64,000 bases of DNA from positions 1 through 64,000 of the forward strand of contig WFMF01000052.1 of the NCBI GenBank assembly GCA_011033025.1. Direction: 5' to 3'. The notes beneath the pieces were generated by a model that saw nothing but the letters and a program-made list of their open reading frames with translations, had not been told where the DNA came from and did no database searches. The position numbers and the translations under genes are program-made. Source of the stretch: Beroe forskalii. Lineage: Eukaryota > Ctenophora > Nuda > Beroida > Beroidae. Every line of letters starts with the position of its first letter. Position 1 is the stretch's first letter. Positions 23,105 through 55,786 of the stretch are shown here, piece by piece.

Positions 23105-24267
23105 TTACACTGATTGAACAGAGGAAGGCATGTTATTGCTGTTAAGTTGGTTCATCACAACAACAGGATCCTGTGCTACTTTATCAGAACCTCCAGCATA
23201 CTTCCTCAAACACCCGCCAAATATCGTGTGGTTAACGTACTCTCTAAACTCCAACATCCGCCAGTAGTAGAGTATGGGATTCAGAGCGGCGTTTAGAGAT
23301 ATGCTGAGCACGTGAGTGAACCCTGCCACGTACTGTTTGAACACAGGACTGGGTATGACTAGGGGAGGGGGAATGGACTGACGCTGGGACACGATCTGGA
23401 CATACATGTAGATCATACAATAGGGAACGTTAAGGATTATGTAGACTGCTGCGAAGAGAACTACTGTTATACCGGATTGGTGCGCCATGCTTCTTTTCTT
23501 CTGTTTCCCTCTCCACCAACCCCTCCTCCAACCCCTCCTCCAGCCCCTTCCTCTCCATCCACCACTATTCCTTCTACCACTCCAGTTTGATTAGACAGGA
23601 CCAAAGCATTATTGAGATTCCTCCTGATAACCCACTCATGTCTCAATATCTTCACTAGAGTCAGCGCAGCGCTGGCTACAGTGAGGGGGAGGGGTAGGAA
23701 GAGCAGGGCAGGGATTGACATGACGATCAGACAGTACTTGAGCCCACTGGTGTTCACGAACTGCGACTTGTCGAGCGCCAGAGCTCGCCACTCCTCCTTG
23801 TAGTAGTGAGGAATGCTGTAGAAAGTGGGCGTGGTCGCTACCAGGAACAAGGCGTATACCCCCATCGCCAAGAACACTTGGAAGGGTCGTATCTCCGAGA
23901 AGGGCTGGAGAATGCGGCAGGCACGGGTCACGCTCAGCAGCGCGACCAGGAACACCGAGTAGCGACTGCTGAAGTTCCACAGGGACCCCCACACCTCCCG
24001 AAAGTGGGCGTTACCAAACGCGAGGGCAGCTCCGTTAGCAAGGTAGGAAACACCCACGAATAGGGTGAGGATCCCCGTGAGAATGTCGGTGAGGGCGATC
24101 ACGGAGAAAACCCGGGAGAAGATCCGAGACGCCATCCTCGTGAGGAAGAAATAGAGAGCGACACAGTTCGATAGGACGCCGAATAGGACGAGAAAGATGA
24201 GGATTATGAGACCGGTGATGAGGGAGTAGGCCTTGTAGGAGGCGTCCGGGGTATCGCCCGACATCAC
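23105..24267 (-). CDS. Rhodopsin-family GPCR, orphan, apparent frameshift in loop 3
   Basis: Two overlapping - strand frames together make one seven-helix receptor with no intron. The first (24267 down to 23467) starts MMSGDTPDAS and carries helices 1-5. Helix 1 contains GVLSNCVALYFFL, helix 2 ALTDILTG, and helix 3 ends LLSVTRACRI where DRY would be. The second frame (to 23105) carries helices 6 and 7, with KQKKRSMAHQSG before helix 6 and LNPILYY, the NPxxY motif, in helix 7. The frame changes inside a G-rich, glycine-coding repeat of intracellular loop 3 at about 23500-23560. That is a place prone to slippage or sequencing error. A tiny intron is unlikely because there is no pyrimidine tract. 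DRY is replaced by TRA. The ligand is unknown. It is nested in the DNMT3 intron on the same strand. Confidence 0.75.
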
Positions 24268-25597
24268 TGGGGGATGGAGGTGTAAAGTCGGGAAATAAGG
24301 GGTAAGGGTACATTGTACTATTGTGATAATATACAGTAAGTGTAACGCTCTTCATGCAGTATAACAGTATCCGAATATAGTGAAAAAGTGATAGATGTTT
24401 TCTCATTTGTGGAGGAGATCAAAAACTGACACATAACAAAAAAGATACGTAACAGAAAGATAATACAAAAGAACGAAACACATGTCCTCATAAATCAGTA
24501 AACATAATTTCTTGAGTTAATGACGATAATATAGCTGGCAGGACGTGCTCCTTACTGTTACCTGTCAATAACGCAATAATGAAGCATTAGATTGCAGAAC
24601 GAATTTGCAAATTACAGTATTATTATATTATCAATATTATTGCGTGACCGTTATAAGCTTGGGTCAAGATTTGGGTTACGGTATAACTGTCGATCAAATT
24701 GGAAAGGGCTTTTGACATCAATAGCTGTACACATTACAATATTCATACACGAAGGTGCAGTGACAATCCTGTACGGAGCCTTACGGTCTCATTTCCTTGT
24801 TCAATAATTAGCAAGTCGTACAGTACGGACTTCTACCGTATTAGCCGGGCGAGATACATCGATTCTCTCCACTCCTCCATGTTGATGTACAAATTTTCCT
24901 TATACTCTTATATGTCGCCGGCAAGTTGGGAATTTTTCCTTGTGGTTTGAAAGGTACGGTTCACGGTTTAGAGGGGGCTTTTGACTGGTATAAAGGGGCT
25001 TTTCCGGAGGAGGGGGGCTGTGTCTGAGATAAGTGACTTTGCGTGGCTGATATGAGAAATTCTATCTTTACATCAACAATCAGCAGTGAATCATGGGTCA
25101 ACGTTGACTTCCATAGAACTATAAAACTTAGAAAAAGAAATTTAGAAATCTCAACAAGCTGACAATTTGAAATTAATCGTATAGTACAGGCATCAGGTAG
25201 ATTGGAGTAATAGAGTGATAATAAGACTAAAAACATTATCGAAGTATGTCATTGCTTCATCTAGAAAATTAATCCTCATTACCTCATTTAATTAATCTAA
25301 ATGCTGAAACACGGACCAGCTGGTAAGTCTTGATATATTATATTGAAGAAGGAGTTTCGGCTCATAGTAAACAGTAAACTGGAAGCTACATGGCACGTTC
25401 TAATAGTTTAGGCGAAAATGAATTTCAGCAGAGTTTTACTTTTTTACTTTTTCAATAAGCCGAGCACCTGTAAAAGAAGGATAAAACTTTTTTGCAGCGT
25501 AAGCAGGTTTGGAATCCGTCGTGATGAATGGTCGCATATTGAACGCATGCCCTGACTATTACATTAATTAAATATGAGTTGTCACTTTGACAGAACT
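24268..25597. other. Spacer between the GPCR and PAN genes
   Basis: These 1.3 kb lie between two - strand genes and show no supported exon or recognised repeat. They probably hold the GPCR promoter and the 3' untranslated region of the PAN-domain gene. Confidence 0.4.
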
Positions 25598-26976
25598 TCA
25601 CTGAAGGAGTGCTGACAAGACAAGTGCTAGTAAGCCTCTGATATGGACCACTCTCTCCTGCCCAGCCCCACTCCTTTCTTTCACACTCCCTTTCTGCTCT
25701 GTAGACGTATTGAATGTCATGGGGGTGGTTTGTGGAGTCTTCATGTTGGCTCCCCCCAGCTTCCTACACCGATATGGTTTAGCGTTCTTGGCGCACACCA
25801 CAAGCTGTTCCCGGTTGTTCCCCAGCTCCGGAACTCCATACCCGTCCTCACACACAACACGCACTCTGGCTCCCTCCAGAAAGAGCGGAACTCTGTTACG
25901 GTTATCTACCTGACCGTGCTTCACTGCCATGGTCTCTAGCGGACACGTGCCCTTCCAGCGATAGGGACGGAATATCCTGAGCCCAGACAACATCTCCACC
26001 GGAACAGGGTACGAAACCTGTGAGAAATCTTTGAAATAGCGGATGAAGACGGTGTAGTTATAATGCAACCTTTGTAAGTTGTAAACCTTCTTCTTGTCAT
26101 CCCTTGTTACCAAGTAAGTGTGGTTGAATAACTCGATGCCAATTTCGCTATGAGATCCATGTCATCCATGACTGTTTTTTCGTTCATTTTAACCACTGTT
26201 GGGGAGCTGTTGCACTCTGATCTTTGGTCATGGGCCGGTAGACGACCTATTCCTTGACCTCCAGAAATGTTAAAGATGCGCACCACGCTGTGGTTCCCTG
26301 AAAAAGCTATGGTTTCAAAGGGGCTTAACCTCCAGGTTGTCGCTAAGTAGCAGTCCGTCCATTTTAAGATAGGCCAGGTTTCCGAGCCACTAGGTCCTGA
26401 ACATTCAGTCGTGGTCAGGCATTGATCCCAAGACTCCCCTTTAGACATGTACACATGGTTATTGTAAAAGTTCTCTTTGGTCTCCAGAATACCTGCCAGT
26501 GTGGGAGTCCATTCCATACAGCGCCTACTGAAACTCACCGACTGCCCCTTAGGACCCGGCGCTATAACTATCCCATCATCTTCGTTGAAGAGCAGACACA
26601 TACGGTCAGTGAACGAGTAGGAGAAGACTTTGCAGTCCCAAATGAAGGTGCAGTAATGGTAGCACTGATTGAGATCAGATACTCGGAATCTTTGGAGAAG
26701 GCGGGAGAGCAGGTAGGAGGGAGGTACTTCGCAGATGCAGGAAGACTGCAAGATTTCTCCAGACTGCAAGATTTCTCCAGAAATATTCAGCATTGTTCCA
26801 TTTTCATTTCTTCTGTTTGAAGATGATGTATGATTGACATGCCCTTCATCAATTAAAGATGCAACATTCCATTCTTTTGACTCTTTCTTCTTGTGTTGAC
26901 CTGGTTTTGATACATTTGGTTTTGATACATTTGCCTCACATTGACAGCAAAGGGAGATAAAGAGCAAAAGCAACAT
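25598..26976 (-). CDS. Secreted PAN plus sushi-like protein, probable GPI anchor, frameshifted
   Basis: The - strand start at 26976 gives a signal peptide (MLLLLFISLCCQCEA) followed by an N-glycosylation-rich segment. Next comes a PAN/apple-like module (CICEVPPSYLL to CYHYCTFIWDCKVFSYSF to MCLLF and RRC). A middle region with WTDC and CSGPSG follows. The frame stops at 26107. A different frame, open from just upstream, continues with YLVTRDDKKKVYNLQRL and a sushi-like module (TCPLETMAVKHGQV, VRVVCEDGYG, VVCAKN, YRCRKL). It ends ERSGAGQERVV plus a short hydrophobic tail, as in a GPI-attachment signal. No GT-AG intron explains the switch, so there is a one-base shift near 26100-26170, either a real lesion or an assembly error. 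A 17-base unit is duplicated near 26740-26775, encoding GEILQS twice. It is a likely cell-surface recognition or adhesion protein, but its partner is unknown. Confidence 0.65.
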
Positions 26977-27865
26977 CTTATCAGCGGCTTATAAATAATA
27001 TCTAATGGGATCTAGTGATAACATTGTAAACTTATGTCGCAAATCAGCTGACGACGATAATCACAAGATTTTCGAAACCTTCTGATTACAACTCTCTCGT
27101 ATTATTTATATCGTTTAAAACTTCAATCCCTTGACTTCTTGAGAACAAATCAGAGCTTATTGTTTTTTTAAATGAAATAAATAATTAATAAAGCTTACGA
27201 CCGTTTTTGGTCAATAGACTACGTTAATTGATGTTCAAATGAGCTCCAGTGTCGAGCTATAATGATTCGAGTTGTCGACAATTGAAATTTCACAACCACT
27301 AATAGAGTTTTGATTACATGTTATTACACTTTTAGAAACCCTTATTTTAGATCTAAGTAACGCATCATGTTGATGTAGTACTAATAAATACGCTTATCTC
27401 ACGGTACATAGTAGTATTACTATATACTATTGTTGCAACGCAAATCCAAGTGCTAATTAGTGAAATAATAAGTAATCACACTAATTGGCACGAGGCTTCA
27501 GCCGAGTGAAAATCAGTGAAACAGTATCGAGACGAGTAACTGCATATCTAATCTAATTTCAAAGTATAATATAAAGCAAATATCATGAAATATTTGCTGA
27601 TTAGTAAGGTACCTAAATGTACGGAATTGATAAACATAGGAAATTTTATTCTTTTTTGATTTATTGACCATAAAAACACAAGTTATCAATCTGAGCAGCT
27701 GAAAATTCTAAAGTAGGTATTTTATCCCCGTTTGTTATTTTGATGTCCTTTCCGGGCTTGGTATTGCACCCTTATTTCCATCAGTCCCCGAAATAATTTT
27801 ACATGAATCGATTCCGATAGTCCAATCAAAAATAATTTAGAAACATTTAGGTAGCCTTCACTTCA
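26977..27865. other. Spacer between divergent PAN gene and transposase gene
   Basis: AT-rich, with no supported exon. It should contain the promoters of both flanking genes and the left end of the transposase-bearing element. I searched by eye for a match to the candidate right end (ttaaagggatactgaag) and did not find one. Bases 27460-27530 hold a small repeat with ggcacgaggcttcagccgag, similar in style to other hairpin elements here. Confidence 0.4.
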
Positions 27866-30202
27866 ATGGTCGCTGGTTGTGTGGTAGGAGGATGTAATAA
27901 TGATACAAAGTCGTTGAGTACACGTAGAGACTTTTTGATACTTCACGCAGTACCTTTGGATGCACATATAAGAAGGAAATGGGACATGAGGGTAAACCGT
28001 CAAATAAGTCATTTGAGCTCCATGAAGCAGTATAGAGTCTGTTCTGACCACTTCAATGATTGTGATTATGTTGCATCTGACTTTTTAAGATACAAAACGA
28101 TGGGTTTTAGTAAGAAAATGAAATTGCGTCTTCAAAATGATGCAATACCAAATACAGATCCAGAAACAGGTAGGCAGCGGCTGTATCTTGGTTCTGGATT
28201 CACAGCTGATGAAACCAATGCCAGCAGTGCGAAAAGAAGGAGAATCAATCGCAGATTACTCGATTCTATGGACACGTACAGCTCTAACATAAGCACATCA
28301 CAGTATCCTTATACCATAGATGAAACTCCTTGCGGAATTGTAGATAATACAGCCTCATTTAGTGATGTTTTGAGTGAAGACATACTTGATGAATACAGGA
28401 TTGAATTGCAATCTCAGTTTGGATATGTTCCTAGTTCAAATGGGCCTGAGCCTGATATAGATCTAGACACGCTTTATGACTTCCTTAAGATAACAGCATC
28501 CACTCAAACTGAAGATTCCTTTTTTCAACCTGAAATCAATGAATCTGAAGATGACGAGTGGTTTGATTGTGATGATGCTGGTCCACATGATCCTGACTAT
28601 GAACCATCATCAGAAAGTGATGACAGTTCTGAGAAACTGAGTAATGCAGAGCCAAATATGGATTATAGTACCAGAAAGGATTTCAGGAAGCTTCTCAGTG
28701 AGTTTTTGTGGATATTTGTGTCCGTTGAGCAACTTCTTAAACTTTTCAACTGGTGTCCGAATTGTGGAAGTTCAGCTGAAGTTTTAAAAAGTTACTCAAC
28801 GGGATTCTCAACAACAATTCAGTACAGATGTTCAGGACCAATACCGCATACTGAGTTATGGCATTCTTCACCAGTATTTTACAAAAGATATCAGCTGAAT
28901 GTTGTATTCACATCTGTTCTATCCATGTGTGGTGTTGGGTACTCGGCAATAAGGAGTGTGTTTGATACAATGAAAATTCCCATAATTTCTGAACGTCGGT
29001 ACTACCATATCACCCGTTCCTGGCTCAATCCAGTAGTATACAACTTCTATATTCCATTGCGGGATGCCACCATTGACAGGCTGAAGACTCTCAAAGACGT
29101 CGTGTTGTCTGGGGACGGTCAGTTTGATAGCCCCGGACATTGTGCTAAATATTGCGTGTATACAGCGATGGATCATGCGACAGGGGCAATTGTTGATTTT
29201 AGTATAACTCAGAAAGGTATCCACCACGAGGAATTAGAAAGAGCTGGTTGTAGAGAGCTTCTCCAAAAGCTCATTGGAAAAGGCATTTCAATGTTCAGTT
29301 TTGTTACTGACCGTCACAGTGGTATCAAGGCCATGATTCGTGACGATAAAGCATTTTCCAAGATACAACATTATTTTGATATTTGGCATTTAGCCAAAAA
29401 TTTGTCTAAAAAGTTGAGAGAATTGGTAAAACTGAAAAGAAATAAAAGTTTGCTTCCCTGGAAACAGGCTATAATCAATCACTTCTGGCACTCTTGTAGG
29501 TCAAGTGCAGGAGACAGAGTGAAGCTTGTGGAAACATTTCACTCTTTTCTACTGCACATTACTAACGCCCACTTTTGGACTAGAAGAACATTCACTAGGT
29601 TGAAAGGTGATCAGCTGTACCCGTCATTCACAAAAATTTTCAAATGTGAACATGGTAAGCTCCAAAGGAAACAGTTACGAAGAGGGCCATGGATCAAGAG
29701 AACATCTCAAACATTCAAAGATTTGTTTAGACTTGTGACGAAGAAAGAGTTCGTTGAGGATATAATGCATTGTACTACTTTCTTGCACACTGGTGCGTTG
29801 GAAAATTACCATAGTGTGCGTCTGAAGTATTTGCCAAAACGTATTGCTTTCACTAGGGAGACAACAGCAATTCGTTCAATGCTTGTAGCCATCGAGACTA
29901 ACAAAAACCTCAAGAGTTCTACTGCGAGCAGTGATTCAAAAAAATATGCAAGATATTCGAAACAGGGTGACACTTGGACTCTGCGAAATAAACAACAGAA
30001 GAAAAGTTACTCTTTCCGTCAAGAAATCCTGGGTACGATCATCAGAAATGTAATGAGCAATCGGAAGCTTAAAGTTGATATGACAGAGTATATACCCAAT
30101 GACATACCCACAAATATTGCTGTTCAACCCCGACCTAGTATGTCGGACCTTCTGAAAAAGCACCGGTCAAGAATGATAACTTCACAAAATAATCGTCCGT
30201 GA
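27866..30202 (+). CDS. THAP-domain DDE transposase-like protein
   Basis: An uninterrupted 778-codon frame. Residues 1-90 form a THAP zinc finger: CVVGGC, a tryptophan in RRKWDMRV, then CSDHF, then FLRYKTMGF. THAP is the C2CH DNA-binding fold shared with P-element and other transposases. An acidic, low-complexity linker follows (about 180-270). A CPNCGS/YRC cysteine motif comes next (about 297-330), then a RNase-H-like catalytic region. In it DGQFDSPGHCAKYC and FVTDRHSGIK supply candidate acidic residues, followed by FDIWHLAKNL and LENYHSVRLKYLPKR. The overall form is that of the THAP-bearing Kolobok-like transposases, though the superfamily call is from memory. No stop or frameshift is seen, so it may be young or domesticated. 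An AATAAA lies at about 30343. A ballast-domain gene follows on the same strand 330 bases later. Confidence 0.8.
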   Translation: MVAGCVVGGCNNDTKSLSTRRDFLILHAVPLDAHIRRKWDMRVNRQISHLSSMKQYRVCSDHFNDCDYVASDFLRYKTMGFSKKMKLRLQNDAIPNTDPETGRQRLYLGSGFTADETNASSAKRRRINRRLLDSMDTYSSNISTSQYPYTIDETPCGIVDNTASFSDVLSEDILDEYRIELQSQFGYVPSSNGPEPDIDLDTLYDFLKITASTQTEDSFFQPEINESEDDEWFDCDDAGPHDPDYEPSSESDDSSEKLSNAEPNMDYSTRKDFRKLLSEFLWIFVSVEQLLKLFNWCPNCGSSAEVLKSYSTGFSTTIQYRCSGPIPHTELWHSSPVFYKRYQLNVVFTSVLSMCGVGYSAIRSVFDTMKIPIISERRYYHITRSWLNPVVYNFYIPLRDATIDRLKTLKDVVLSGDGQFDSPGHCAKYCVYTAMDHATGAIVDFSITQKGIHHEELERAGCRELLQKLIGKGISMFSFVTDRHSGIKAMIRDDKAFSKIQHYFDIWHLAKNLSKKLRELVKLKRNKSLLPWKQAIINHFWHSCRSSAGDRVKLVETFHSFLLHITNAHFWTRRTFTRLKGDQLYPSFTKIFKCEHGKLQRKQLRRGPWIKRTSQTFKDLFRLVTKKEFVEDIMHCTTFLHTGALENYHSVRLKYLPKRIAFTRETTAIRSMLVAIETNKNLKSSTASSDSKKYARYSKQGDTWTLRNKQQKKSYSFRQEILGTIIRNVMSNRKLKVDMTEYIPNDIPTNIAVQPRPSMSDLLKKHRSRMITSQNNRP

Positions 30203-30530
30203 ATCAAAAGGTCTGACTGAATATAATGAATATTTTAGACACTCGTTAGTTGCCGATAATACTTTTGCTTTTTTTGCGTCAAGATCCAAATTTTTTTCAC
30301 TTTTCAGTTGTTTTGTATTGTTTTTATTATTTACCTGGCAATAAATCTACAATTTACTTTTATACTTGAATGCTCTATTATATTGTGATTATTCGAATTA
30401 ATTTTTGTCAAGAGACTGCCGAATTGTCCACGTTGTGTCTTTTTGGCCTTATTCTATATCCATTTCCAATTATTCAGTCTTGAGTTTATCTTATTCCTAA
30501 CCTTTACCTATAGGCTGTGTCGATTTCAAG

Positions 30531-31160
30531 ATGTCTCTCAAAAGCTGCGAAGAAGCTCCAAATATTGATTTAGACCATTTCTATCCCATCATATTACTGG
30601 ACGGTTCACCACATGTGAGTGATGAGGAGTGGGTAGACCCACCTGCATATGAAGAGAGCGAGGATGATACTGAGGTTGATGGGTCATACTTTGCCAACAT
30701 TTGTAAAAATAGACTGCAAAACCCGATCGAAATTTGGTGTTCGTGTGGAACTTGTAAAACAATGAATACGGAGATAGAATGTGTGTGCTGCTGTGAATCT
30801 TACGTTATTGCTAAACACAGGGGTGATGCTAAATGCATCACAGATGTCGGTTTGTTCAAGGAACTGGTTCTTAACAAAGAAGGTCTCAAATATAGTCGTT
30901 ATCTGTATTCACTTACCATCGAGGATGTGGAAAAGCGACGAAATTACATGGAAAAAGAGCTAGGCCCTGCAAATCTACGTTTTTTGGCTTATAAATCATT
31001 CATTAACATTATATCATCGAGTGAATTTGACAGAAAAATACGATACATATTGCCATCTTGTGTTGTAACAGCTGTGAGAGACAAGTTTCCAAACCCTGAA
31101 GGAGTACCGTACATTGGGCATATTGAGATTGAAACAAGTGACTCATTGAAATTACCTTGA
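30531..31160 (+). CDS. P2X7 ballast-domain-like protein
   Basis: A 209-codon intact frame. The N-terminal 60 residues are acidic. From about residue 65 it has NRLQNPIEIWCSCGTCKTM, TEIECVCC and, later, DAKCITDVGLF. Then come LRFLAYKSFINI and IRYILPSCVVTAVRDKFP, ending near GVPYIGH. This cysteine array and the (L/Y)PSCVV..(I/V)R..FP block are those of the zinc-coordinating cytoplasmic ballast domain found at the C terminus of vertebrate P2X7 receptors. The same domain occurs as stand-alone proteins in other animals. There is no channel domain here. It lies just downstream of the THAP transposase, same strand, with its own ATG. Its acidic N terminus resembles the transposase linker in composition. 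Being the second gene of a mobile element is a reasonable inference. Confidence 0.75.
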   Translation: MSLKSCEEAPNIDLDHFYPIILLDGSPHVSDEEWVDPPAYEESEDDTEVDGSYFANICKNRLQNPIEIWCSCGTCKTMNTEIECVCCCESYVIAKHRGDAKCITDVGLFKELVLNKEGLKYSRYLYSLTIEDVEKRRNYMEKELGPANLRFLAYKSFINIISSSEFDRKIRYILPSCVVTAVRDKFPNPEGVPYIGHIEIETSDSLKLP

Positions 31161-38044: not shown

Positions 38045-41000
38045 GTATACATCATAACAGAGTTAACAATACCCAGGCTCGCCCTACACTTGGGCTAACC
38101 TCTAATCACGGGCTTCCCTATACAGTATACACCGCTCCCCTTAATAATCTTGGGCTTACCCACTTCCCTTGGTCTCACCCCTAAACAAGGGATCGTCCAT
38201 ACCAGACTCGCCCTTATCCTGGGCTATACTGCATATGGCTCCCCCTACCTTGGGCTTCTGGAATGCATTGGGCTAACCCCCAAACACGGGATCCACCATA
38301 CCAGACCAACCCTTATCCTGGGCTATACCGCATAATATGGCACCACCCTACCTTGGGCTTCTGCAATGCCTTGGGCTAACCCCCAAACACGGGATCCACC
38401 ATACCAGACCAACCCTTATCCTGGGCTATACCGCATATGGCTCCACCCTACCTTGGGCTTCTGCAATGCCTTGGGCTAACCCCCAAACACGGGATCCACC
38501 ATACCAGACCAACCCTTATCCTGGGCTATACCGCATATGGCTCCACCCGACCTTGGGCTCCCCCTCGCTTTAAATATGGGCTCCCCTCCGTTATATTGGG
38601 CTACCCCATTCACTCACCCCATGCCCTCTCCCCCTAGTTTGGGCTCCCCCATGATCAAAACCCGGACTACCCCCGCATCAACTCGGGCTCCCTCATGATA
38701 ACTCGGGCTACCCCCATAAAAACTCGGGCTACCCCTATACTAACTCGGGCTCCCCCAGTATTAACTCAGGCTCCCCCAATATTAACTCGGGCTCCCAGAT
38801 ATTATGATAACTTGAGCTCCCCTTGATAACTCAGGCTCCCCCATTATTACTCGGGCTCTTATCTCGGGCTCCCCCATATTAACTTTGGCTTCCCCCACTA
38901 TTTGGCTCCCCCATACCAACTTGGGCTCCCCCGTACCAACTTTGGACTCCCCCGTACTAACTTGGGCTCCCCCATATTAACTTGGGCTCTCCCGTACTAT
39001 CTGGGGCTCCCCCGAACCAACTGGGGCTCCCCTGTACTAACTTGGGCTCCCCCATACCAACTTGGGCTCCCCCGTACTATCTGGGCTCTCCCGTGCTATC
39101 AGGGTTCCCCCGTACTATCTGGGCTCCTCCGTACTAACTTGGGCTCCCCCGCGCTATCTGGGCTCCCCGCACTAACTGGGCTTCCCCATACCAACTTGGG
39201 CTCCCAACTTGCCACCAACTTGGGCTCCCCCGTACTATGTGGGCTCCCCCGTGCTATCAGGGCTCCCCCGTACTATGGGCTCCCCCGTACTAATTGGGCT
39301 CCAGAAATATTTTCCAAAAATATCAGGGCGGCCAATCCCTTCACTGTAGAGAGAGATATGAAAATCTGATATACAGGGGGAGTCCCCTAAAAGTAAATCT
39401 TATTGTTGATTGGACCCCACCGTACTAATTGGACTCCCACATAGGGAAACGTTCAGAAATAACTACTGTGAAATTCCAGAAATTATTTTCCAAAATATGG
39501 CAAATTTAACGAAAATGGCGGCCAATCGTAAAACCTTCACTGTAGAGATATGAAAATCTGATATATATGGTCAAGGATGATCTATTTATCTCCATCTTAA
39601 TGTGATAAAATGCATTCGACCTCTTGTACACAAGTACCTACACAGTATCACTTTACATTTTCATTGTCAGGGCGGTAATACGCATTTACGAGTTTGGGGA
39701 GGGACTTGGCGAGCGAAGCGAGCCCAATAATTTGAGGTCCAGGGGTGAAACCCCTGGCAGGCATAAGGGAGGCGGAGCCCCCGCAAAATTTTTAGTATGT
39801 GTGGGGAGCCCAAGTTGGTATGGGGGAGCCCAAGTTAGTACGGGGCAGCACAAGATAATACGGGGGAGCCCAGATAGTACGGGGGAGCCCTGATAGTGCG
39901 AGGGAGCCCAAGTTGGTTCGGGGGAGCCCAAGTTGGTATGGGGAGCCCAAGTTAGTACGGGGGAGCTCAGATAGTAGGGGGAGCCCAGATATTATGGGGG
40001 AACCGAAGTTGGCAAGGGGGAACCCAAATAGTGTGGGGGAGCTCAGGTTAGTACGGGGAGCCCAAATAGTGTGGGGAGCCCAAGTAAGTACGGGAGAGCC
40101 CAAGTTAGAGCGGGGGGAGCCCAGATAGTACGGGGGAGCCCTGATAGTACGGGGGAGCCCAGATAGTACGGGGGAGCCCAAGTTAGTACGGGGAGCCCAA
40201 GTTGGTACGAGGAAGCTCAAGTTAGTACGGGGGAGCCCAAGTTAGTACGGGGGAGCCCAAGTTGGTATGGGGGAGCTCTGATAGTACGGGGGAGCCGAAG
40301 TTGGTATGGGGGAGCCCAGATAGTACGGTGGAGCCCAAGTTAGTATGGGGAGCCCAAGTTGGTATGGGGGAGCCCAGTTAGTGCGGGGGAGCCCAGATAG
40401 TACGGTGGAGCCCAAGTTAGTATGGGGGAGCCCAAGTTGGTATGGGGGTGCCCAGTTAGTGCGGGGGAGCCCAAGTTAGTACGGGGGAGCCCAGATAGTA
40501 CGGGGGAGCCTAAGTTAGTACGAGGGAGCCCAAGTTAGTACGGGGGAGCCCAGATAGAACGGGGAAGCCCAAGTTAGTACGGGGGAGCCCAAGTTGGTAT
40601 GGGGGAGCCCTGATAGTACGGGGGAGCACAAGTTGGTTTGGGGGATCCCCAGAGAGTACGGGAGAGCCCAAGTTAATATGGGGGAGCCCAAGTTGGTACG
40701 GGGGAGCCCAAGTTGGTATGGGGGAGCCAAATAGTGTGGGGGAGCCAAAGTTAATACGGGGGGAGCCCAAGATAACATGGGGGAGAGCCCGAGTAATAAT
40801 GGGGGGGGGAGCCCGAGTTATCAAGGGGAGCCCAAGTTATCATGGGGAGCCCGAGTTAATATTGGGGAGCCCGAGTTAATACCCGAGTTAGTACGGGGGT
40901 AGTCCGGGTTTTGATCATGGGGGAGCCCAAACTAGGGGGGAGGGGCATGGGGTGAGTGAATGGAGTGGCCCGATATACTGATATAACGGAGGGGAGCCCA

Positions 41001-41520
41001 TATTTAAAGCGAGGGGGAGCCCAAGGTAGGGTGGAGCCATATGCGGTATAGCCCAGGATAAGGGTTGGTCTGGTATGGTGGATCCCGTGTTTGGGGGTTA
41101 GCCCAAGGCATTGCAGAAGCCCAAGGTAGGGTGGAGCCATATGCGGTATAGCCCAGGATAAGGGTTGGTCTGGTATGGTGGATCCCGTGTTTGGGGGTTA
41201 GCCCAAGGCATTGCAGAAGCCCAAGGTAGGGTGGAGCCATATGCGGTATAGCCCAGGATAAGGGTTGGTCTGGTATGGTTGATCCCGTGTTTGGGGGTTA
41301 GCCCAATGCATTCCAGAAGCCCAAGGTAGGGGGGGCCATATGCAGTATAGCCCAGGATAAGGGCGAGTCTGGTATGGACGATCCCTTGTTTAGGGGTGAG
41401 ACCAAGGGGAGTGGGTAAGCCCAAGATTAAGGGGAGCGGTGTATAGGGGACCCCGTGATTAGAGGTTAGCCCAAGTGTAAGGCGAGCCTGGGTATGGTTA
41501 GCTCTGTTATGATGTATACC
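38045..41520. mobile_element. 3.5-kb foldback of GC-skewed short repeats
   Basis: The outer ends (ggtatacatcataacagagt on the left, its complement on the right) and more than a kilobase inward are inverted copies. In each arm the outer part is a 100-base tandem repeat, for example at 38346, 38446 and at 41041, 41141, 41241. The inner part is dozens of roughly 20-base units near gtactaacttgggctccccc. The left arm is C-rich and the right arm G-rich. The spacer (39300-39790) holds a direct repeat around cttcactgtagagatatg and a GC-rich word (gcgagcgaagcgagcc). The many open frames are repeat artefacts. Confidence 0.85.
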
Positions 41521-45348: not shown

Positions 45349-48300
45349 ATGGACCAGAAATATATCTTGGTAATCACGATAGTTGCTCATGTGACACTAG
45401 TTCTATCGGAGCCAGGTAATTGTCTAAAATATTGAGTAAAATAATCAAACCTGCCCACAACGGCATAGATAGGCTAATGATAATGTAAACTGCAAAATAA
45501 TAAAATATTACTTATTATAACTATTCAATATATAATTCCATATATTTAAGTATTTAGTAGCTATAAAATGCATTATTTTAGAGACATTCTTGGTTTAAAT
45601 TCTATCTGAAAGTTAAATTGTCTAATTAGGGAGTGGGGAGGTCCAACCCTAATAGAGTAATAACTTGGAAAACGCGAATTTGGGATAGGAGTTGGCCATG
45701 ATGGTCTGGACATGTACCAACATTTTGATAGTGGTGTCGACTCAATTGGTCCAACATTGCCCATGTGAGGCCTCGGAGCAAACATGGGGTCCAAAAATCG
45801 AAATTTTAACGGAAAGAGATAGAGCTTAGTTTTTGCTTGCATTCGATTCGTCTCGACGAGCTGATCATATTTTTAGAGTCATTGTTTGTCAAAATCGGAT
45901 GAAAAATGGACAAAGCACGCGTGCCAAAGTGGCAGTTGGCATATTTTGGACCTAAAGGTAGCCAGATTGGCCAGGTTTTCTGAGATATGAGCTTCAAAAT
46001 TGTTTTGCCCATCATTTAGGTCAAAATTGATCATGGGCAAACCAAATTATACGTAAATCGGACCTTATTTGGCCATTTTAGCCCATAAAAACCTTCAAAA
46101 ATCTACAAAAATGGCCATATCTCAAAACCAGATTTTTCCGAAGTGTCGTACACTCAAGGTTATAACTTCGACTACGAATAATATTTTTGCATGAATCGTT
46201 TTGCATAAGTTAGAAGACTAAATTCCTCAGAAACAAATAGAGCCGGATTTTTGCAAAAAAAAGCTAAGCTCAATCCCCTTTTAAAATTTCGATTTTTGGA
46301 CCCCAATTTTGCACCAAGGCCTCATATGAGCAATGTTGGACCCATGGACTCGACACCACCGACAAAATGTTGGTACACGTCCAGGCCATCCTGGCCAACT
46401 CCTATCCCAAATTCGTGTTTCCAAAAGTCCAAAATATTAGGGTTGAAACCCCCCCCTACAAAAATACAAACAGCTATGACAGCTGTATAATTAATCATTT
46501 CAGAGACATTGTTGGTATACAGTTTATCTGAAAGCAATAGTGATTTGGAGGTAGAGTGCTTGAGTAATATTGATATGGGACCTGTATGGAACCCAGAAGA
46601 TTCCACAGGTGGATCCTTTGATAAACCCACTGATGAACCCACTGATGGATCTGATGACCCCACTGAAGATTTCACAGATTGGTCTGACTGGGGCACGCTG
46701 AACCCAGTTGAACAGTTTTCTGAATGGTACTCCGAAGAGGACAATGTTATAACAGTTTCGTGGTTTGTAGACGATGAACTGATCTACACCAGTCACGATA
46801 AAGGTAAAACTAAATGTTCTTTGGCAATTACTATTCAATTGAATCGTCCCTTGGGATCATCCATAGGAATACAAATATTGTTATTGTGTTTTTCAATAAA
46901 TGTATCTACTCATTTATAATTAAATAGCTGACTGGATTTGCGGTTCGTATTTGATCGAAGACCATTTGGCCTCGGCCTCCTAAACGGCCCAGTGACAGAA
47001 CACGCTCAGCGTGGCGTCAAGTCGGCCTTCTCCAGACGTGATTTTGGCGAAAAATTAACGATGATTATAATCACTATAATATAATAGCTTTGGACACAAA
47101 AGGGCGATTCAGCATGACATTGGCAATTTCACCAAATTTCGTCGTTGCATGAATACACCATTTCGAATGGCACGTTATCATAGATTAACGTAGGCTCGGC
47201 TTCGGAATCGATATTGTTCGGAAATGTCGTTATAGTTCCCGCAATGACTAAAATTGTTATGAGAGTGAAGAGGTGATTTGAGATCAAGTCTGCACTCTCA
47301 GATTAGCGTTTTACCACTCTCAGCGCGGAGACGTGATTTGAAAATCACGTCTCTGCTCTGAAAGTGGCAAAACACTGATCTGCAAAATCTTTCGTTGCGA
47401 TGGACTATGACATCTGACGGTATTTTGATGTAATTTGTTCTCAATTCTTCGCTTATTACAAACACAAGAAAAATGTTTATACTTTTATAAGAGCATTTTA
47501 AATTATCATCTTTTACTATACAATTTGCCGTATCTAAGTGGCATATGCTTGGCTGGTCTCCGGTCAGCTGGGTAATCACCAGAAATACCCCAGCTTTTGA
47601 TTTTGTTGCATGTATTTCATACCCAGCGCACAGTAGTGTGTAATCGCCATAAACAAATCAATGAACGAAACACACTCGCTAAGTAGATTCATGCCACGCT
47701 GTTAGACGAAACAAAATTGACAAGGTATAATTTTGGGAAAAAGTAGGCCGGTGATGGAAGACGTGATTTGGCACTCCTAAAATCGGCGAGGTGCTGACTG
47801 TGTTCTGTCGCTGGGCCAAACGGTAAGGGATCGTTCACATATTACGTAATCAATTTTTGGCCGATCTTAACCCCCCTCCCTCCCCCTCGTAATCAATTTT
47901 ACAGTAGTTGTATTTGTTACAATAACATGTATCGTAATCATTTGGAAACACCCTCCTCCCCCCTAGGTGATTATGTAATATGTGAACAATCCCTAAACAG
48001 TTTAATCAGGTACATACTTTTTCTTATCATTTAACATGCTTTTCATATATTCGAGTGATAATTGATATGATCTTTTTTTAGTTTAGTTTCAGTTCGGAAT
48101 GGATGTAGTGCAGTGTGCTCACCGTCTTTGTCCATGGCTTCCGGGGGTGTAGGTTTCTTGGGCTAGGGAGCCGAAAAACCGTGTGCAGTACATTTTGTCC
48201 CTCATAATCACCATTGTCCAACTGATGACCCTTTGTTAGCCCAGAGAACTTGTTGGTTTTTAGGCCTTAAATTATTATCAAATTCATTGAATATCTTTTA

Positions 48301-51300
48301 TTCATTCATATTTTTGACACTTGCATAAAACGATGAGCATGATATTAATTTACTCCTTTTATTATTATTGCTTATTACTTCATTAACTATAGAGACATGG
48401 ATTGATCAGATTACAGCACTTCTGTATTGTATTTTGAAGATAACAATACATCTTTTCCATAGTTTCGTATGTTGTGTTGAATTGTGACATTTGGACATTG
48501 ATACCGTGGTAATAATTAAAGTGTTTTCCCCACTAAGAGTATGCAGCCTGGACATGTACTGAGGAGCCTTTCCAAATCACGTGTCCAGATAACCAGAAGA
48601 TCTTCATCCATGATGCTTACCAAGGCTGGCAGAAAGAGAACGCCTACGATTACGTTCTCTTCAACAATAATCAGAGCTATTGTGGTGGAAAATACGATGA
48701 GATAAATGACTCATGCAACATAGACAGGTCAGCATTTGAATTTGTGGTACATCAAAGCTCTTATCTATGAACCCCAAATCCACATTAACAGTGAAATCGG
48801 GTACACCTCATGTACATTATACCTATGTACGAATATTCCGATTACCGAATCGTATGTGATGGTAAGACGCTAAGAGTACCTACAAATAATAAACAATCGC
48901 ACAAAATACGCTTAGAGCATGGCTGGGAATCCGTTTATATACGCTTAGAGCATGGCTGGGAATGCGCTTATGCAAATTATACATTATATAATACACGCCT
49001 ACAAGTACCCTCAAAATTGGCTAATATTATATCATATCACATTTAAAAGTTAGATGTTTGCTTTGTCTATGAATGTTATGGTTAACAGAGTTTGTTATCA
49101 TTATCTTACTCTTCCAGGTCAATTGAAGTGGAAACAAAGTGCAATGGGAAAACAGAATGCCAGATTGAACCTCTAAGCAACGACACGTCTTGTGAAGAGT
49201 CAACTAACTCTTATCATAAAGCGTTCTCAATGATTTACTACAAATGTTCTTTATCAGGTTATCTGTCATTTAATAAGCTGTGAGATCATTGTTTAAATAT
49301 GACTTGACATCAATTTTAAAATGAAGTAGTGCTGTGTTGGCATCAACTTTCAAACGCAAGGAAAAAATTGTCAATTCCATCTCGGAAACTTGCAGAGGAT
49401 GGAAAAAATCTAATTATATATATCTTTCGTCGTAGTAGTAATAATGGCTATGTGCCCTTTCAGAAAAGGCTGAAAATTTATTGTACTGATTTTATTCAAT
49501 TTCAAAGCCCTTATGGGTGCCCCACCGTGGATTTTTATACAAACCAAAACAAAATTGTAACATTTCAAAAAATGGCTGAAAATCCCCTAACCTTGCAAAG
49601 TTACAACTCTAAAACAAAATGACGTACCATTTCAGCTTTTATTTTATAAAATAATAATTTTAGCAAAAATTATGACAGCATTTCACAAGAAACAAAAATT
49701 TCGCATCGAAAATGGTGCCATTTCAGAAAAAGCGTCGAAAATCGCAAATTCTTCAACAAAATGGAACCATTTCCGAATGTGGTTGAAATTCCCAAGCGGA
49801 ATTGATACCATTTCGGTGATTTATGATAAAACTGCCATAAATTAAATCCCTTTAAGCCTTTACACACTGAAAAGTCAGGAAAAAAGGAGTTAAAATGGTA
49901 GCAAAGAATCGAGTCAAATTTGTTCATCGCCGGTCTTTCCCTTGAAAAATATTCAAATCAAGAAACCTGAATTAGATCTTCTACGATTGTGTAGAGGTTA
50001 CCACGACTCAAATCGGAAAAGTGCAAATTTTCAATCGGCCTTCTACTTCGGGGCGCCACGGGGGCGTAAGGGGGCGCCAAAAGGGCATCGGTCTGGGCAC
50101 TAACTCACTCAGGATGCAACATCAAGGTGAACTTTTCCTCGCTACCAAAACCTTTGACTCTTAGGCAATTCGATGTATGCACTTTATTTTGCTTATATTT
50201 TGACATTTTGTTCTCTTCAGAGGGCTGTAACGACGACCAGCCCTGGATTTGCAATGTGAATAAGATAATGGATGCCTGTTATGATAAGGATTCACCAAGC
50301 TATTACGATGCGCAGTATAGTTGTCAGAGGACGTGTAACCTGTGCAACCCAAAAACAAGTGGTATGGAGTGGTTTGGACTTTGCAGTGATCATACAAAAA
50401 ATAAACTGGCATTCAGAGGCTTTTGATAGCAAACTTACATACTAACAAGAAATTAGAATAATTCATTCACTTCAACAATCGTCGATCATTAAATGATAAC
50501 CATCTGTCAATTTCTTAATTGATATATGCTATAAAATAATTATTTAGACAATTAAGTAGGTACATTGTGTAACACGAAAATTTCCAACTCAAAATCAGAA
50601 TGAATCAATTTCAGAGTGGATTGACATTAAAGACGACGCAATTCAAACCAGTATCTCCATAGAGTCTGGTATATCAATCAGGAAGAAGGTCATCGATGAA
50701 TTATCAAAGAGAGAAAACTTCAAAGTTTCTTTAGTTGGAATCTTTGGCGAAGATGAAGTACAGAACGAAGTGGAGTGGAAATTCAACAAGTTTGTAATTT
50801 ATTGTTTTTTTTTTCTTTATTTATGTAGCCATGATTATGCTGAGGAGTCTGGGATTCATTGAAACATTGAGTCATTGCCCATTGGGTAATCTTAACTCAG
50901 AAAAGCATGATTAGAATCATTAATTCAGACGTTATAAAAGAATAATGAAATATTCTTATCAGAGTTAAGAGACGAGTGAAATTTGCCACAGAGAGTTGTA
51001 ATAGTGCATCCGAAGAAGCAGATGAGGCCTACGAAGCACCTTTTTGCGAAGCAACCTCAGTTTGGAATTTCAGGATTGCAAGGTTAGTATGATATAGGAA
51101 ATTTTTAGATACTATAGAAAGTTTAATGAACAATAATCTCATAATTAATTATTGATCAATTCAAATTGAGTATATTTGTTCCCCATGTTGCATTATTATC
51201 GCACGGATCTTAAGACCAGGCTAGTAATACTCCAATATCGTATATGCTTGTCTGTCTAGTGTCTACGGTAAACTATTGGCTTGAGAAAAAATCATCTTCA

Positions 51301-54300
51301 GTGACCTATTTCAATTGTCTTGTGACAATCATCAAGTATTCAATATGGAAATCCCAAATTGGTGCCCGTTTTGGTTGGCGCTGCAATACCCTTCCTACTT
51401 CAAAGGGATAAGATTTGATCAAAAAATAATAGAAAAAGTGACTGATCAGCTGGAATTAATGACAGGTTAGAAATCACAATATTTTGTTGTTGATACTTTG
51501 ATATGGCACCTATTGACTAAATGACACCTTTGATATGCCACCTATTGATATTATTTAGCCACTTTCTTACGACTGCACCTGACACAGCTTCAGACTGAAA
51601 TGCCCGTTGCCCATCTACGATCCGTCTATTGAAAGTAATCGGTTATTAAGTTGTTAGTGAGAGCAGTGAACATTGCCATTACCTTATTGAATGAGCCAAA
51701 TTATTATCATCAAATAAGCAAATTATACCTCATTGAAAATTATAGATCTACTACTGACTTCATTAAAGGCTTTAATAAGGCATGTGCCGATTGTGCTCAT
51801 TGAAGAAATTCTGGATAGGTAGGCAGAATTTCTTAACTCTTAATATCATAATATTATTATCATAATAATTGTAATAATTATCATAATTTTAATTATCATG
51901 ATAGGTAACTATAGTAATTATCATGACGATCAGAATAATTACCAGTTTTCAGGGGCACTCCGTACCATCAAGGGCTTTTAAATAAACTTCACTGTAGCTG
52001 TAAAGCTGTAACCAGCTCGGTAATCGGTACTTTGGCATCAGATTTTTTTACCCATCTTAATCTAAGATTTCGATTATTGGAATTTACTGTAGGTATGTAA
52101 AACAGTCAATTTTGTTGCAGAAGATGAAGCATACTTGATATCCAATACAAGGAGTGGCGAAAGTTTTCACTCGAGACTCACTTATACTGGATCTCCGAAA
52201 GGTAACGTACGAATTTTGCGGGAGATGGTTAATTTGGTTACAATTCGGGTTACAATGTTAAGATAACTTATTAACTTAAATTTTAACAATGAACATCATC
52301 AAAATTTGTTATCATCAAACTGAATGCTACGGCCTATTATTGGTAGTATATTATAACAAATTTAACATTTTTTTCTATTATATTATGTCATTGTAAATAA
52401 AATGAGTTTCAGTTAACGGCATGCGCCTGAAGTGTGTTATGGCAAGGCGACTGAGTAATGAAGTTGTCCACACAGCTAACTACAGAGCAATTGTCGAAAG
52501 TTTCCATCCTGCAGGTAGGTAATCGTTGCATTAAAACTAGTTCATCTTCCTGCATCTTCCTGCAAATTCATGGATCGTTTTACTCCCTTTTTCTAGCGTG
52601 TTAGCATCAATTGCGACACTTCTACGCAAATCCTTTACTATAAGACTATACTACGTTACTAAACATTGTCACATTATATTCTCAGATTGGAAAGAAGTGT
52701 TGGATGATTTTGATGGGAGGCAATGTTTCTACACGTACCGCGATATTCCTGGTATGGATCAAAGGGTGTATCTGTGCGATGAGAGCAGCCTTCAAACTTA
52801 CACGATTACAATGCGAGACGAGGATATCTGCATCTTCAGCTCCCATTGTATCGGTAAACATCGCTATTTACTTATTATTCTATGCCTATGAGTCTATACA
52901 AAGTGAGAAAGAGCTGAGTTAGACACTGAATATTATAACCTTTACTTCTATAACAAGTAATAACGATGATGAAGATACATTATTAAAAGTTGGCCCATTG
53001 AAAGTGAAACACGACAAGAAAATATCACATACATGCATTTAAGTCAAATTGTTCATCAATTTATTTCAGTATCGGGCAATAATCAAGCGTGCATGTGTCC
53101 CAGTGTTGAGATTGGAACTGATCAAAAGCAGCTGAACACCACCATATGTATGGGCAGAACAGGCCAATACACCGCAGTTCCCACAAAATATATGTGTCAA
53201 ACGCATAATTGGAATTATTGCATAGACGCAAATACATTCATATTGAGCCTCTGTGTGGAACCTAGTCAGACATTTGAGTGTAGTAATGGTAAGGTGATTA
53301 GTAAAGAACTGACATGTAACTATAGGGATGACTGTGGTACGTATGATGATTGGCATCGCTTTAGTCTCTATGAAGACGAGTCTCAGTGTGGACATGGACA
53401 CGGAGTATCTTGTCCTTACGAATCAACTGAGGGCAATAGGACGATCGATGTGTGGATACCTCCATTTTCTCTGTGCCAAGAAGAAAGTATATGCAGTGAG
53501 GAGTATATGCCGACATGTGAAAAAGCACTGGATTGTAAATACGAAGGTTATTATAATGTTCACGTGAACAAGACGCAAATGTGCGATCCAACGGGCTATA
53601 GTTATTGTGACGACTCCCAGAAAACATATTTAAACTGTCCCAACACCCAGGAGTCTCGGTCGGTGGAGTGTTTTCACCAGAATGAGCAAGTCAAAGTGGG
53701 AAAACGTTTGGAATGCGATGGATATGTCACTTGCGACAACGGAGATGATGAAAAGTGCCTCAAATCAAACAGCAGTTGTTTGGAGAATGTTATATGGCTG
53801 CATTCATCCGAATCGTGTATCGACACAAATGTTGATTACATCCTATGCCCACAATCATCATGGGAGGATGAACTATTGAATCATTATTTGCACATAGATC
53901 TGATGTGCAATGGCCGAAAAGACTGCGAGGGCAGAAACGAAGAAGAGCAATGCGGGTCAAAGAGTGACTTAATTTTGAAACGTTTCCTTCCTGGACCTGA
54001 GGGATACTTTTTCTTTAATCGTAGTTCTTATGTTCATCCTGATTGCATACCAGGGATAAAAAAATCAGGAATTAATTGCGAGCAGAGACGGTTCTATTAT
54101 ACAGAAGAATTCAAGTGCACCTCAACAGCAAAAAAATGTAAATTAGAATACGTCTTTGACTATTGTTTAACTGATCAGTTATGTGGTATTGCGTCTGGTC
54201 AAGCTAATAAAACGTACGATGAAATTAAAGGTATCAAAGATAACATCTACATGGACGTTCCTGAGACTAAACCCCGTGATTTTGGATTCACGAAATGCTC

Positions 54301-55786
54301 CGACAATCATATCATTCGTATAACATCTTGGTGTGACACCATAGTAGATTGTACAGACGGCTCCGATGAGCTTAACTGTTCGTCTAATAGCAACATAATG
54401 ACGTTTGATTGTGGAGAAAATATTACATTAGCAAGGCGATTTCAACCCATTTCACAGAAGTGCAATGGTGTGATGGATTGCCCTAACGGCTACGATGAAT
54501 GTAATGAGGACTGCGTTTTCGACAGCAGCCGATCTATAGTAACGAAGAAGTACATACCTGTGGCTGGCTTTATCGGCATTACAGCTACAGTAGTCAATCT
54601 ACTATCTATCACCAAGTATCTGCTACAAGTTTCTTCCATGCGCCAGATGAACAGTTTCATAAACCAGTCATTCATTGCGATGATATCGATAGGAGACTTG
54701 CTGGTCGGAGTTTACATGATTGCAATAGTGGCTGTTACTCTATCTTACGGGGATGAGTATTGTGTGGACAGACTCAGGTGGCTGAGTAGTGATGGGTGCT
54801 CAGCTTTAGGGATAGTTAGCACTACAGGGACACTAATCTCTATGCTATCAATGACAACTTTAAGTGTTTTCAGGATGGTTTCCTTGAAATCTATGATCAG
54901 TGCGGGAGAGGTGAATAAGAGAAAAGTGCTAAAAGTAACATTAGTTTGCCTTTTCATTTCTACCATAGCATTCACCATAGCCCTTGTTCCTATACTGGAG
55001 GAAACAGAAAACTATTTTGTGAATGGAATGCTTTTTGAGAATAATCCTTTATTCACTGAAGTTGTTGACCGCAGAATGATCTATGAGCTTCACCGTTCCT
55101 TTACGGACAATCTCAACATTGATTCGCACTATGGAAAATTCATTAAACATACATGGGATTGGCATTCTTTTGAAGTCCTCTTCGAAAGTTTATACTACAC
55201 AGAGAATCGCACTGTTGGTTTTCCAAAACCGACATACATTGGTAAAAAAGTAGGTTTCTATGGAAATCAAGGGGTATGCCTATTCAAGTATTTTGTAACA
55301 CCATCAGATCCACAATTTGCGTTTTCTCTATCCATCATCTTCCTAAGTGCCCTGTGTTTCGTCATCATCACATGTTGCTATGTGATAATCTTCAAGCATG
55401 CTTCCTCGAGCACACAAACATCGGGAGCTTCAGACATGCAACGAAATTCCATGATACGACTGCAACGGAAGATATCCCTCATAATCGCCACAGATTTCAT
55501 GACTTGGATTCCATTTATTGCTATATGTATACTACATCTCATGGGCTTGATCGTGGCGACACCCTTATATGAATTTTGTTCAATTCTACTCATTCCCATA
55601 AACAGTGTTATCAACCCAGTGATATATAATGGCGACAAGATAGTGGATGGCATCAGAAAAACATTTTCAAAGGTGACGATAAGACGCAAAAGAAATCTAA
55701 CGGTTGTTGCCTCGATCAATCAAGGAACAGTTGTGGAAAACATCAGTATTGTCATGACGAAGAGATCTGACACAAAAACAAACTAA
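45349..55786 (+). CDS. SUEL lectin-ShKT-LDLa seven-transmembrane receptor, 12 exons
   Basis: Exons: 45349-45415, 46504-46803, 48538-48727, 49118-49257, 50221-50361, 50615-50789, 50963-51082, 51302-51465, 52121-52201, 52413-52514, 52686-52853, 53070-55786. All have GT-AG borders and join in phase to 1,454 residues. Exon 1 is a signal peptide (MDQKYILVITIVAHVTLVLS). Exon 2 is an acidic, PTD-rich linker. Exons 3-4 (residues about 128-231) form a SUEL/galactose-binding lectin domain (ITCPDNQKIFIHDAYQGW, CNIDRSIEVETKCNGKTEC, SMIYYKC). Exon 5 is a ShKT domain (CNDDQPWIC to ACYDKDSPSYYDAQYSC to RTCNLC). Exons 6-11 are unrecognised. Exon 12 holds a cysteine-rich stretch and five LDLa modules (about 620-656, 750-779, 809-844, 959-986, 997-1027; for example CDTIVDCTDGSDELNC). 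It then encodes seven helices (about 1044-1403) with TDFMTWIP in helix 6 and NPVIY in helix 7. The helices resemble the LDLa/relaxin-receptor and GRL101-like rhodopsin subfamily. DRY is replaced by VFRMVS. Loop 2 is about 105 residues. The ligand is unknown. Confidence 0.82.
45628..46460. mobile_element. Foldback element in intron 1 of the lectin receptor
   Basis: The left arm (about 45628-45842, starting gagtggggaggtccaaccct) and right arm (about 46250-46460, ending agggttgaaacccccccc) are inverted copies, roughly 210 bases each at about 80% by eye. A 400-base spacer lies between. Recognisable matched words are gcctcggagca against tgcaccaaggcc and cccaaattcg against cgaatttggg. It ends about 40 bases before the exon 2 acceptor. 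Confidence 0.75.
46986..47817. mobile_element. 830-base element with GGCCCAGYGACAGAACAC ends
   Basis: Left ggcccagtgacagaacacgc and right gtgttctgtcgctgggcc are inverted termini of about 25 bases with two mismatches. They are flanked by aaac on both sides, a possible 4-base target duplication. The centre (about 47310-47400) is a second long hairpin built on gagacgtgatt and aatcacgtctc. It is non-coding and sits in intron 2 of the lectin-receptor gene. Confidence 0.7.
47826..47995. mobile_element. MITE-like element, GGGATCGTTCACA family, copy 4
   Basis: agggatcgttcacatattac and gtaatatgtgaacaatccct are inverted termini with a few mismatches, 170 bases apart, in intron 2 of the lectin receptor. 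This is the best-preserved copy in the window. The internal acgtaatcaatttttggccg and tccccctcgtaatc words match the copy at 16142. Confidence 0.75.

Follow-up and report, generated by a model that had tools for sequence, protein, structure and literature searches.

The window analysed here, the first 64,000 nucleotides of contig WFMF01000052.1 of the comb jelly Beroe forskalii, carries on its forward strand a gene of 12 exons (45349-55786) encoding a receptor in which a lectin-like SUEL module and a ShKT-like module precede five LDLa modules and a seven-transmembrane (7TM) domain of the rhodopsin type. Rebuilt from the sequence, the exons gave a protein of 1454 residues in a single open frame ending in a TAA stop, with GT-AG borders at 11/11 introns, the phases of which (1-1-2-1-1-2-2-1-1-1-1) all close; this is exactly the model put forward in an earlier note on this DNA, and the order of domains read there, from the leader to the 7TM domain, also stands, the signal peptide being recognised by eye. 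Exon 1 (45349-45415) holds the start codon and that signal peptide (MDQKYILVITIVAHVTLVLSEP), and exon 2 (46504-46803) an acidic, tryptophan-rich linker whose length differs among this gene and the two sister genes described below. The SUEL-like module (48549-49247, with the eight cysteines of the family) has its first part in exon 3 (48538-48727) and its second in exon 4 (49118-49257), and exon 5 (50221-50361) contains the ShKT-like module (50226-50345), with six cysteines and the CxxxCxxC end. An unrecognised ectodomain follows in exons 6 (50615-50789), 7 (50963-51082), 8 (51302-51465), 9 (52121-52201) and 10 (52413-52514), then a cysteine module in exon 11 (52686-52853) and, in exon 12 (53070-55786), a single-exon core with the LDLa ectodomain, the 7TM domain, the tail and the stop. 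Phase-1 introns, the usual class in module shuffling, flank each of the exon blocks 3-4, 5, 6-8, 9, 10 and 11. A tblastn search of the 64,000-nt window with the protein found no second copy besides the gene itself.

When the whole protein was compared with Pfam, 7tm_1 (E 7.1e-13, 49.1 bits, cut-off 30.5) and LDLa (E 2.3e-7, 31.3 bits, cut-off 24.1, in four stretches) were the only families reported up to E 10, and no leucine-rich repeat (LRR) family appeared up to that value, at which the filters of HMMER drop most weak matches. Three LDLa stretches were found in the exon-12 frame and five in the exon-12 ectodomain searched alone, at 53273-53389, 53663-53758, 53840-53953, 54287-54379 (the best score among the five) and 54401-54514 (adjoining the first transmembrane helix, TM1), the borders of the first three and of the last being set by eye. 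These modules look degenerate: within borders drawn by eye they hold 4, 4, 4, 4 and 5 cysteines, not six, as if one disulfide had been given up throughout, and a cysteine just outside some of the borders may belong to its module. The fifth aligned to an N-terminal stretch of RXFP1 at 2.8 bits only.

The seven-helix domain (54548-55636, with NPVIY at 55613-55627) includes a long second extracellular loop, which together with the end of TM4 spans 54989-55285 and ends in FYGNQGVC, which lines up with YYGTNGVC in RXFP1. RXFP1 is also the best sequence match of the core in the PDB (7tmw, E 7.1e-11), followed by FSHR and TSHR, and when exon 12 as modelled by AlphaFold (21 rows, mean pLDDT 66.6, pTM 0.60, the first 60 residues below 50) was submitted to Foldseek, the first 28 matches were all LGRs (TSHR, RXFP1, FSHR, LHCGR, LGR4 and a Caenorhabditis elegans LGR). 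Across 21 aligned proteins there is no variation in the Asp of TM2, the Cys before TM3, the Arg of the DRY position, the loop-2 Cys, the Trp and Pro of TM6, or the Asn and Pro of NPxxY, and almost none in the Tyr of that motif; we assigned the class A landmark numbering (D2.50, R3.50, W6.48-P6.50) ourselves. TM3 reads FRM where DRY or ERW is usual, the residue before R3.50 being F and not an acidic one. Judged by its 7tm_1 score and these landmarks the protein is a class A (rhodopsin) G protein-coupled receptor (GPCR), and by sequence and predicted fold its 7TM domain belongs with the LGR group, of which the LRR ectodomain is lacking among the families reported. Membership of the latrophilins or other adhesion GPCRs was rejected, as neither 7tm_2 nor GAIN/GPS was reported in the Pfam search of the whole protein.

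That the lectin-like head and this core are parts of one gene is borne out by two sister genes elsewhere in the genome (216,145,372 bases in 1134 contigs; the window is C603:1-64000). Among the 50 scored matches of the core, the nearest relatives are two on contig C303 and one on C1091, and 13 kb was taken at each of the three and searched by tblastn with the whole protein. Both C303 genes (C303a, 428864-439403, and C303b, 465349-475803) contain all 12 exons, that is, 11/11 upstream and the exon-12 homologue, in order and on one strand, together with some short extra matches. For exon 1 the protein match was weak (E 0.28 and 0.11); its DNA match was strong (77% over 86 bases, E 5.7e-12, and 79% over 78 bases, E 4.7e-13). 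Both genes have the same phases, with GT-AG, at introns 1-11, and all 24/24 cysteines of exons 1-11 are kept in the three genes. The ratio of nonsynonymous to synonymous divergence (dN/dS, by Nei-Gojobori on the three genes) over exons 1-11 was 0.367 (529 codons) and 0.373 (517 codons) for the window gene against its sisters and 0.585 (519 codons) for sister against sister, values to be read with the fact that the synonymous divergence (dS) of several modules is near or above 1. Exons 1-5 are therefore not a separate gene: both sisters have them in line with exons 6-12. A separate 5' gene, which the earlier note had kept in view, is rejected on the exon order, splice sites and phases of both; the single gene from lectin to 7TM that the note proposed holds. 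Together with the dN/dS values and the 24 kept cysteines, the order and phases in the sisters make both chance frames and a split gene very unlikely.

The relatives nevertheless look damaged. C303a has an insert of about 2 kb with inverted repeat ends, and frame jumps, in exon 12; C303b has frame jumps in exon 12; and at the C1091 place (288316-291979) only exons 11-12 were found in 13 kb; the match is 97% identical in DNA along 2230 bases and contains stops, and the stretch includes 100 N, so that this could be an incomplete copy or in part a matter of assembly. Assembly errors could explain part of this damage. The window copy is the sole open one among the four members found.

The head modules were recovered by profile search, so that the outcome which the earlier note named as refuting, no SUEL or ShKT hits, did not arise, although they are weak in single sequences. 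SUEL is not reported for the whole protein up to E 10; for exons 3-4 alone it is the sole Pfam match (E 0.011, 16.5 bits, cut-off 31.4), and it is the top match in the sisters (E 0.046, the next family at 0.079, and E 2.4e-4). Exon 5 has no Pfam ShK match in the window copy, and ShK is matched at E 0.63 and 1.6 in the sisters. The strongest evidence comes from profiles built on the three genes. When the one of exons 3-4 was run against every PDB chain, five of five matches (up to E 10) were SUEL chains, namely latrophilin-like protein 1 (E 0.0023), the lectin CSL2 (0.022), a rhamnose-binding lectin (0.028), latrophilin 1 (0.25) and ADGRL2 (0.48), and both matches (2/2) of the three-gene exon-5 profile were AcK1 (E 0.0087) and Acan1 (0.062), which we take to be ShK-type peptides and which amount to one peptide in effect because their letters are the same where aligned. 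Since the profiles match and the single-sequence scores lie below the Pfam cut-offs, we regard both modules as real but divergent. Shuffles of the window modules with the cysteines held fixed gave SUEL in 0/5 and ShK in 0/5; the latter control says little, because the unshuffled window copy also gives no ShK. For the papers cited here by PMC number, what is said applies to the parts of the text available; with that scope, SUEL lectins are described as having YGR and DPC motifs and a sugar-site Glu after the first cysteine, and some true rhamnose-binding lectins as varying in the YGR and DPC motifs (PMC3269628). Neither motif is present in any of the three genes, in which Thr or Ser replaces the Glu after the first cysteine, and the carbohydrate sensing suggested in the earlier note is thus left without support; so is lipoprotein sensing, which gained nothing from the analyses made and appears only as speculation in the available text of a paper on Ciona (PMC2396169).

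No core 7TM showed up in the six stretches in which the seven Pfam SUEL places of the genome lie, nor in two more beside the place on C680 or in one that continues the window; LDLa-like matches appeared at C306 only. At C306:113500-123499, two Pfam SUEL places lie amid LDLa-like frames of the same strand, with no core 7TM in the 10 kb, and this stretch is perhaps another protein with SUEL and LDLa. A 1137-residue frame at C691:207700-211110, considered as a second ShK receptor, was rejected, because by eye it reads as a protease of the papain type with numerous ShK-like repeats after it.

Among the modules, the leader and linker (51/110 and 55/100 residues identical to the sisters), SUEL (54/105 and 51/105) and ShKT (22/47 and 20/47) are the least conserved in protein sequence, and exon 11 (40/56 and 39/54) is the most conserved. 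The dN/dS values by module are 0.322 and 0.437 for SUEL, 0.233 and 0.404 for ShKT, and 0.397 and 0.310 for exon 11, and synonymous divergence follows the same trend across modules as protein identity: measured against the two sisters, dS is 0.37 and 0.49 in exon 11 and above 1 in exons 1-2 and 5. Perhaps the 3' part of the gene underwent gene conversion.

Exons 6-10 gave no Pfam match over the cut-off, exon 6 being conserved in the sister genes, and profiles of exons 6, 7-8, 7-11, 9-11 and SUEL-ShK scored no better on the 22 database proteins introduced below than on 440 shuffles. A module similar to that of exon 11 seems to lie upstream of the core in four of those proteins (P0005, P0010, P0013 and P0017): with a cysteine-module profile built from them (five rows, segments chosen by eye, no row from the window), the exon-11 frame ranked first among 2093 window frames (E 0.032, the next at 0.3). 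The reverse test, with a three-gene profile of exons 9-11 against the four proteins, did no better than shuffles, which weakens the link; the likeness suggests, without proving it, that exon 11 precedes the core in other species also.

The core belongs to a large family. A search of the Beroe genome with it gave 480 candidates, 50 of which were scored, all at E <=1.4e-69, and they amount to at least 48 core places, window included (two pairs of rows being pieces of one place each); we found no description of this large family of LDLa-bearing LGR-type receptors in the literature. In the protein database the core found 22 proteins, the best named relative being P0010 of Mnemiopsis leidyi; the others are two EukProt entries (the label "sb" presumably denotes Pleurobrachia), one from the tunicate Clavelina (P0022), a GRL101-like one from a scallop (P0023) and 17 ENA entries. 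A tree of the 7TM domain was built from 46 rows, 24 of them paralogues from the same genome; P0005, in which the 7TM occurs twice, and the relatives on C303 and C1091 were omitted. The window gene falls in a branch of 12 rows (100/100) with P0002-P0004 and P0006-P0013, which holds 0/24 of the own-genome paralogues; these form several tight clusters. P0020-P0023 lie outside one branch (96/97), on long branches, and the tree includes no other LGR. In P0013, from the window gene's own branch, two kringle stretches (E 3.4e-23) take the place of SUEL and ShKT, so that heads differ within the branch, if the gene model of P0013 is right.

Homologues of the head were sought in the same database, over part of the possible lengths, and none was found at E <=10 among 3378 candidates with a single-sequence query, nor any among 2825 with the three-gene alignment. 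When the head was compared with the 22 database homologues of the core, P0021 reached E 0.006 in blastp without composition correction, a match that phmmer did not confirm (best 0.22).

The closest published kind of receptor found is the LDLRR-GPCR of Ciona, a lineage-specific expansion of 14 members with several LDLa, no LRR and a 7TM domain like those of LGRs and relaxin receptors (PMC2396169). The window gene is itself an LDLa-only LGR-like receptor by the same definition, having several LDLa, an LGR-like 7TM domain and no LRR reported; it differs in that the Ciona proteins carry LDLa only (PMC2396169), while here a SUEL-like and a ShKT-like module and an unrecognised region are added and the LDLa are degenerate. 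The tunicate protein in our set, P0022, has by eye a long loop 2 with YYG..SVC and lies outside the window gene's branch, among the long branches. The shared lack of LRR may come from common descent with the tunicate receptors or from losses in parallel. RXFP1 and RXFP2 (type C1 LGRs) share the sequence and fold of the 7TM domain, the YG..GVC of loop 2 and an LDLa ectodomain, but have LRR and one LDLa instead of five, and lack the added head. GRL101 (type C2 LGR) also combines several LDLa with an LGR 7TM domain, but has 6 LRR and 12 LDLa, and the available text mentions neither SUEL nor ShKT (PMC8286064). The comparison with relaxin receptors and GRL101 drawn in the earlier note was thus right for the 7TM domain, and missed the Ciona proteins (PMC2396169), which are nearer.

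Latrophilins (ADGRL, class B2) likewise bear SUEL in the ectodomain of a 7TM receptor, and latrophilin-like protein 1 is the best profile match; they differ in having 7tm_2 with GAIN/GPS, neither of which is reported in the window protein. To our knowledge, the SUEL-headed receptors described so far are class B2 latrophilins. In agreement with the same statement in the earlier note, the literature search, which did not extend to bioRxiv or to most subscription papers, yielded no rhodopsin-family receptor that combines SUEL and ShKT with LDLa, and indeed none in class A whose head carries either SUEL or ShKT. In PMC8660763 and PMC8687355, where SUEL or Gal_Lectin stands beside class A terms, the available text uses it for latrophilin-type 7tm_2 receptors, and for choanoflagellate rhodopsins LRR and LDLa are listed as additional domains, with no lectin term in the part available (PMC12716839). 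LDLa-only LGR-type receptors are already known, and the SUEL and ShKT head on one of them is what is new.

Elsewhere in the window, a 294-residue frame on the reverse strand (23467-24351) resembles by eye several helices of another rhodopsin-type receptor, with no Pfam match at E 0.01, and a protein with a PAN domain (E 2.2e-6) lies on the same strand at 26107-26988. On the forward strand, a frame with THAP and a Mutator-like transposase, followed by one with a P2RX7_C domain (27851-31160), is likely a mobile element. Large tandem arrays occupy 20238-23058 (88 copies of a 32-base unit) and 38167-41502 (20- and 100-base units), the latter ending about 4 kb upstream of the gene.

The gene structure, the joint retention of head and core by both sister genes, the identity of the modules and the LGR nature of the 7TM domain give the anatomy of the receptor; each step beyond it is one that we infer. 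Relaxins and glycoprotein hormones act through LGRs, and in RXFP1 the LDLa module and loop 2 relay the signal to the helices. On balance we favour, with moderate confidence, an LGR-type class A GPCR whose LRR part is absent, with LDLa and a SUEL/ShKT head in its place, serving most likely in recognition rather than as a receptor for small free sugars. The leader would place the large ectodomain outside the cell, where the SUEL/ShKT head may capture a macromolecule, either a protein or a glycoprotein, that perhaps originates in prey, in microbes or in adjacent cells; by analogy with RXFP1, the LDLa adjoining TM1 and the long loop 2 would convey this binding to the LGR-type helices, leading presumably to signalling by G proteins. 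A free sugar is less likely as the ligand because the sugar-site motifs are missing, and a hormone less likely because there is no LRR. Several observations weigh against this reading. SUEL and ShK stay below the Pfam cut-offs in each single sequence, phmmer searches of the PDB with single sequences gave nothing for either module, and the genome-wide Pfam matches of SUEL (7) and ShK (102) do not list these exons. No homologue of the head was found in another species by the database searches. Exon 12 is broken in both sisters, so part of dN/dS reflects decay, and the lower identity of the head is no evidence of selection for recognition or variety, as its dN/dS is not higher.

The best surviving alternative, in our view unlikely though still worth attention, is a chemosensory receptor for dissolved or contact cues from a lineage-specific sensory superfamily, which would agree with the 480 candidates, the 50 scored ones all at E <=1.4e-69, with the several tight tree clusters of the 24 sampled paralogues, and with the enrichment of a GRL101-like receptor in the sensory tentacles of a starfish (PMC6267866). 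However, the window gene sits in another branch than those paralogues, and the expansion is therefore mainly one of its cousins. Rather doubtful is a receptor for immune or self/non-self recognition on wandering or epithelial cells: the head is of lectin type, and expressed sequence tags of the Ciona LDLRR-GPCRs come mostly from blood and haemocytes (PMC2396169), but the sugar-site motifs are missing and the dN/dS of the head is not raised. We consider somewhat less probable again a peptide-hormone receptor, relaxin-like or of the cystine-knot type, in which the role of the head would be confined to tuning presentation; in sequence and in fold the core matches RXFP1 and the glycoprotein hormone receptors best, and cystine-knot peptides and an LGR are reported in Mnemiopsis (PMC4079206), yet the LRR, the hormone-binding part of LGRs, was not reported up to E 10 within the filters mentioned, the LDLa-only kin in Ciona were judged on their lack of LRR to be functionally unrelated to relaxin receptors (PMC2396169), and the core family is large. 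That every copy of the subfamily is a decaying relict on its way out is very improbable: three of the four members found (C303a, C303b and C1091) look broken, which assembly errors could partly explain, but the window copy keeps an open frame through its 1454 codons, with dN/dS of about 0.37. Scarcely credible, finally, is a false joining of two neighbours, exons 1-5 apart from 6-12, for although the head occurs in no database protein found and both Mnemiopsis P0010 and the database frames start near exon 11/12, exons 1-11 precede the core in the same order and phase in both sister genes and exon 12 alone has by eye no signal peptide.

Ctenophores may be the sister group of all other animals, and their sensory and immune receptors are little known. 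This gene is a concrete candidate for the means by which comb jellies detect partners, prey or microbes, and it shows that SUEL/ShKT heads have been placed on rhodopsin-type receptors also. More tentatively, and with less confidence than in the receptor itself, we suggest that the single-exon LDLa-LGR core in very many copies, with exchangeable recognition heads (SUEL and ShKT here, kringles in P0013) on exons bounded by phase-1 introns, might be a modular superfamily of the ctenophores' own, which within the rhodopsin class would correspond to latrophilins and to mosaic immune receptors and would have evolved independently of other animals.

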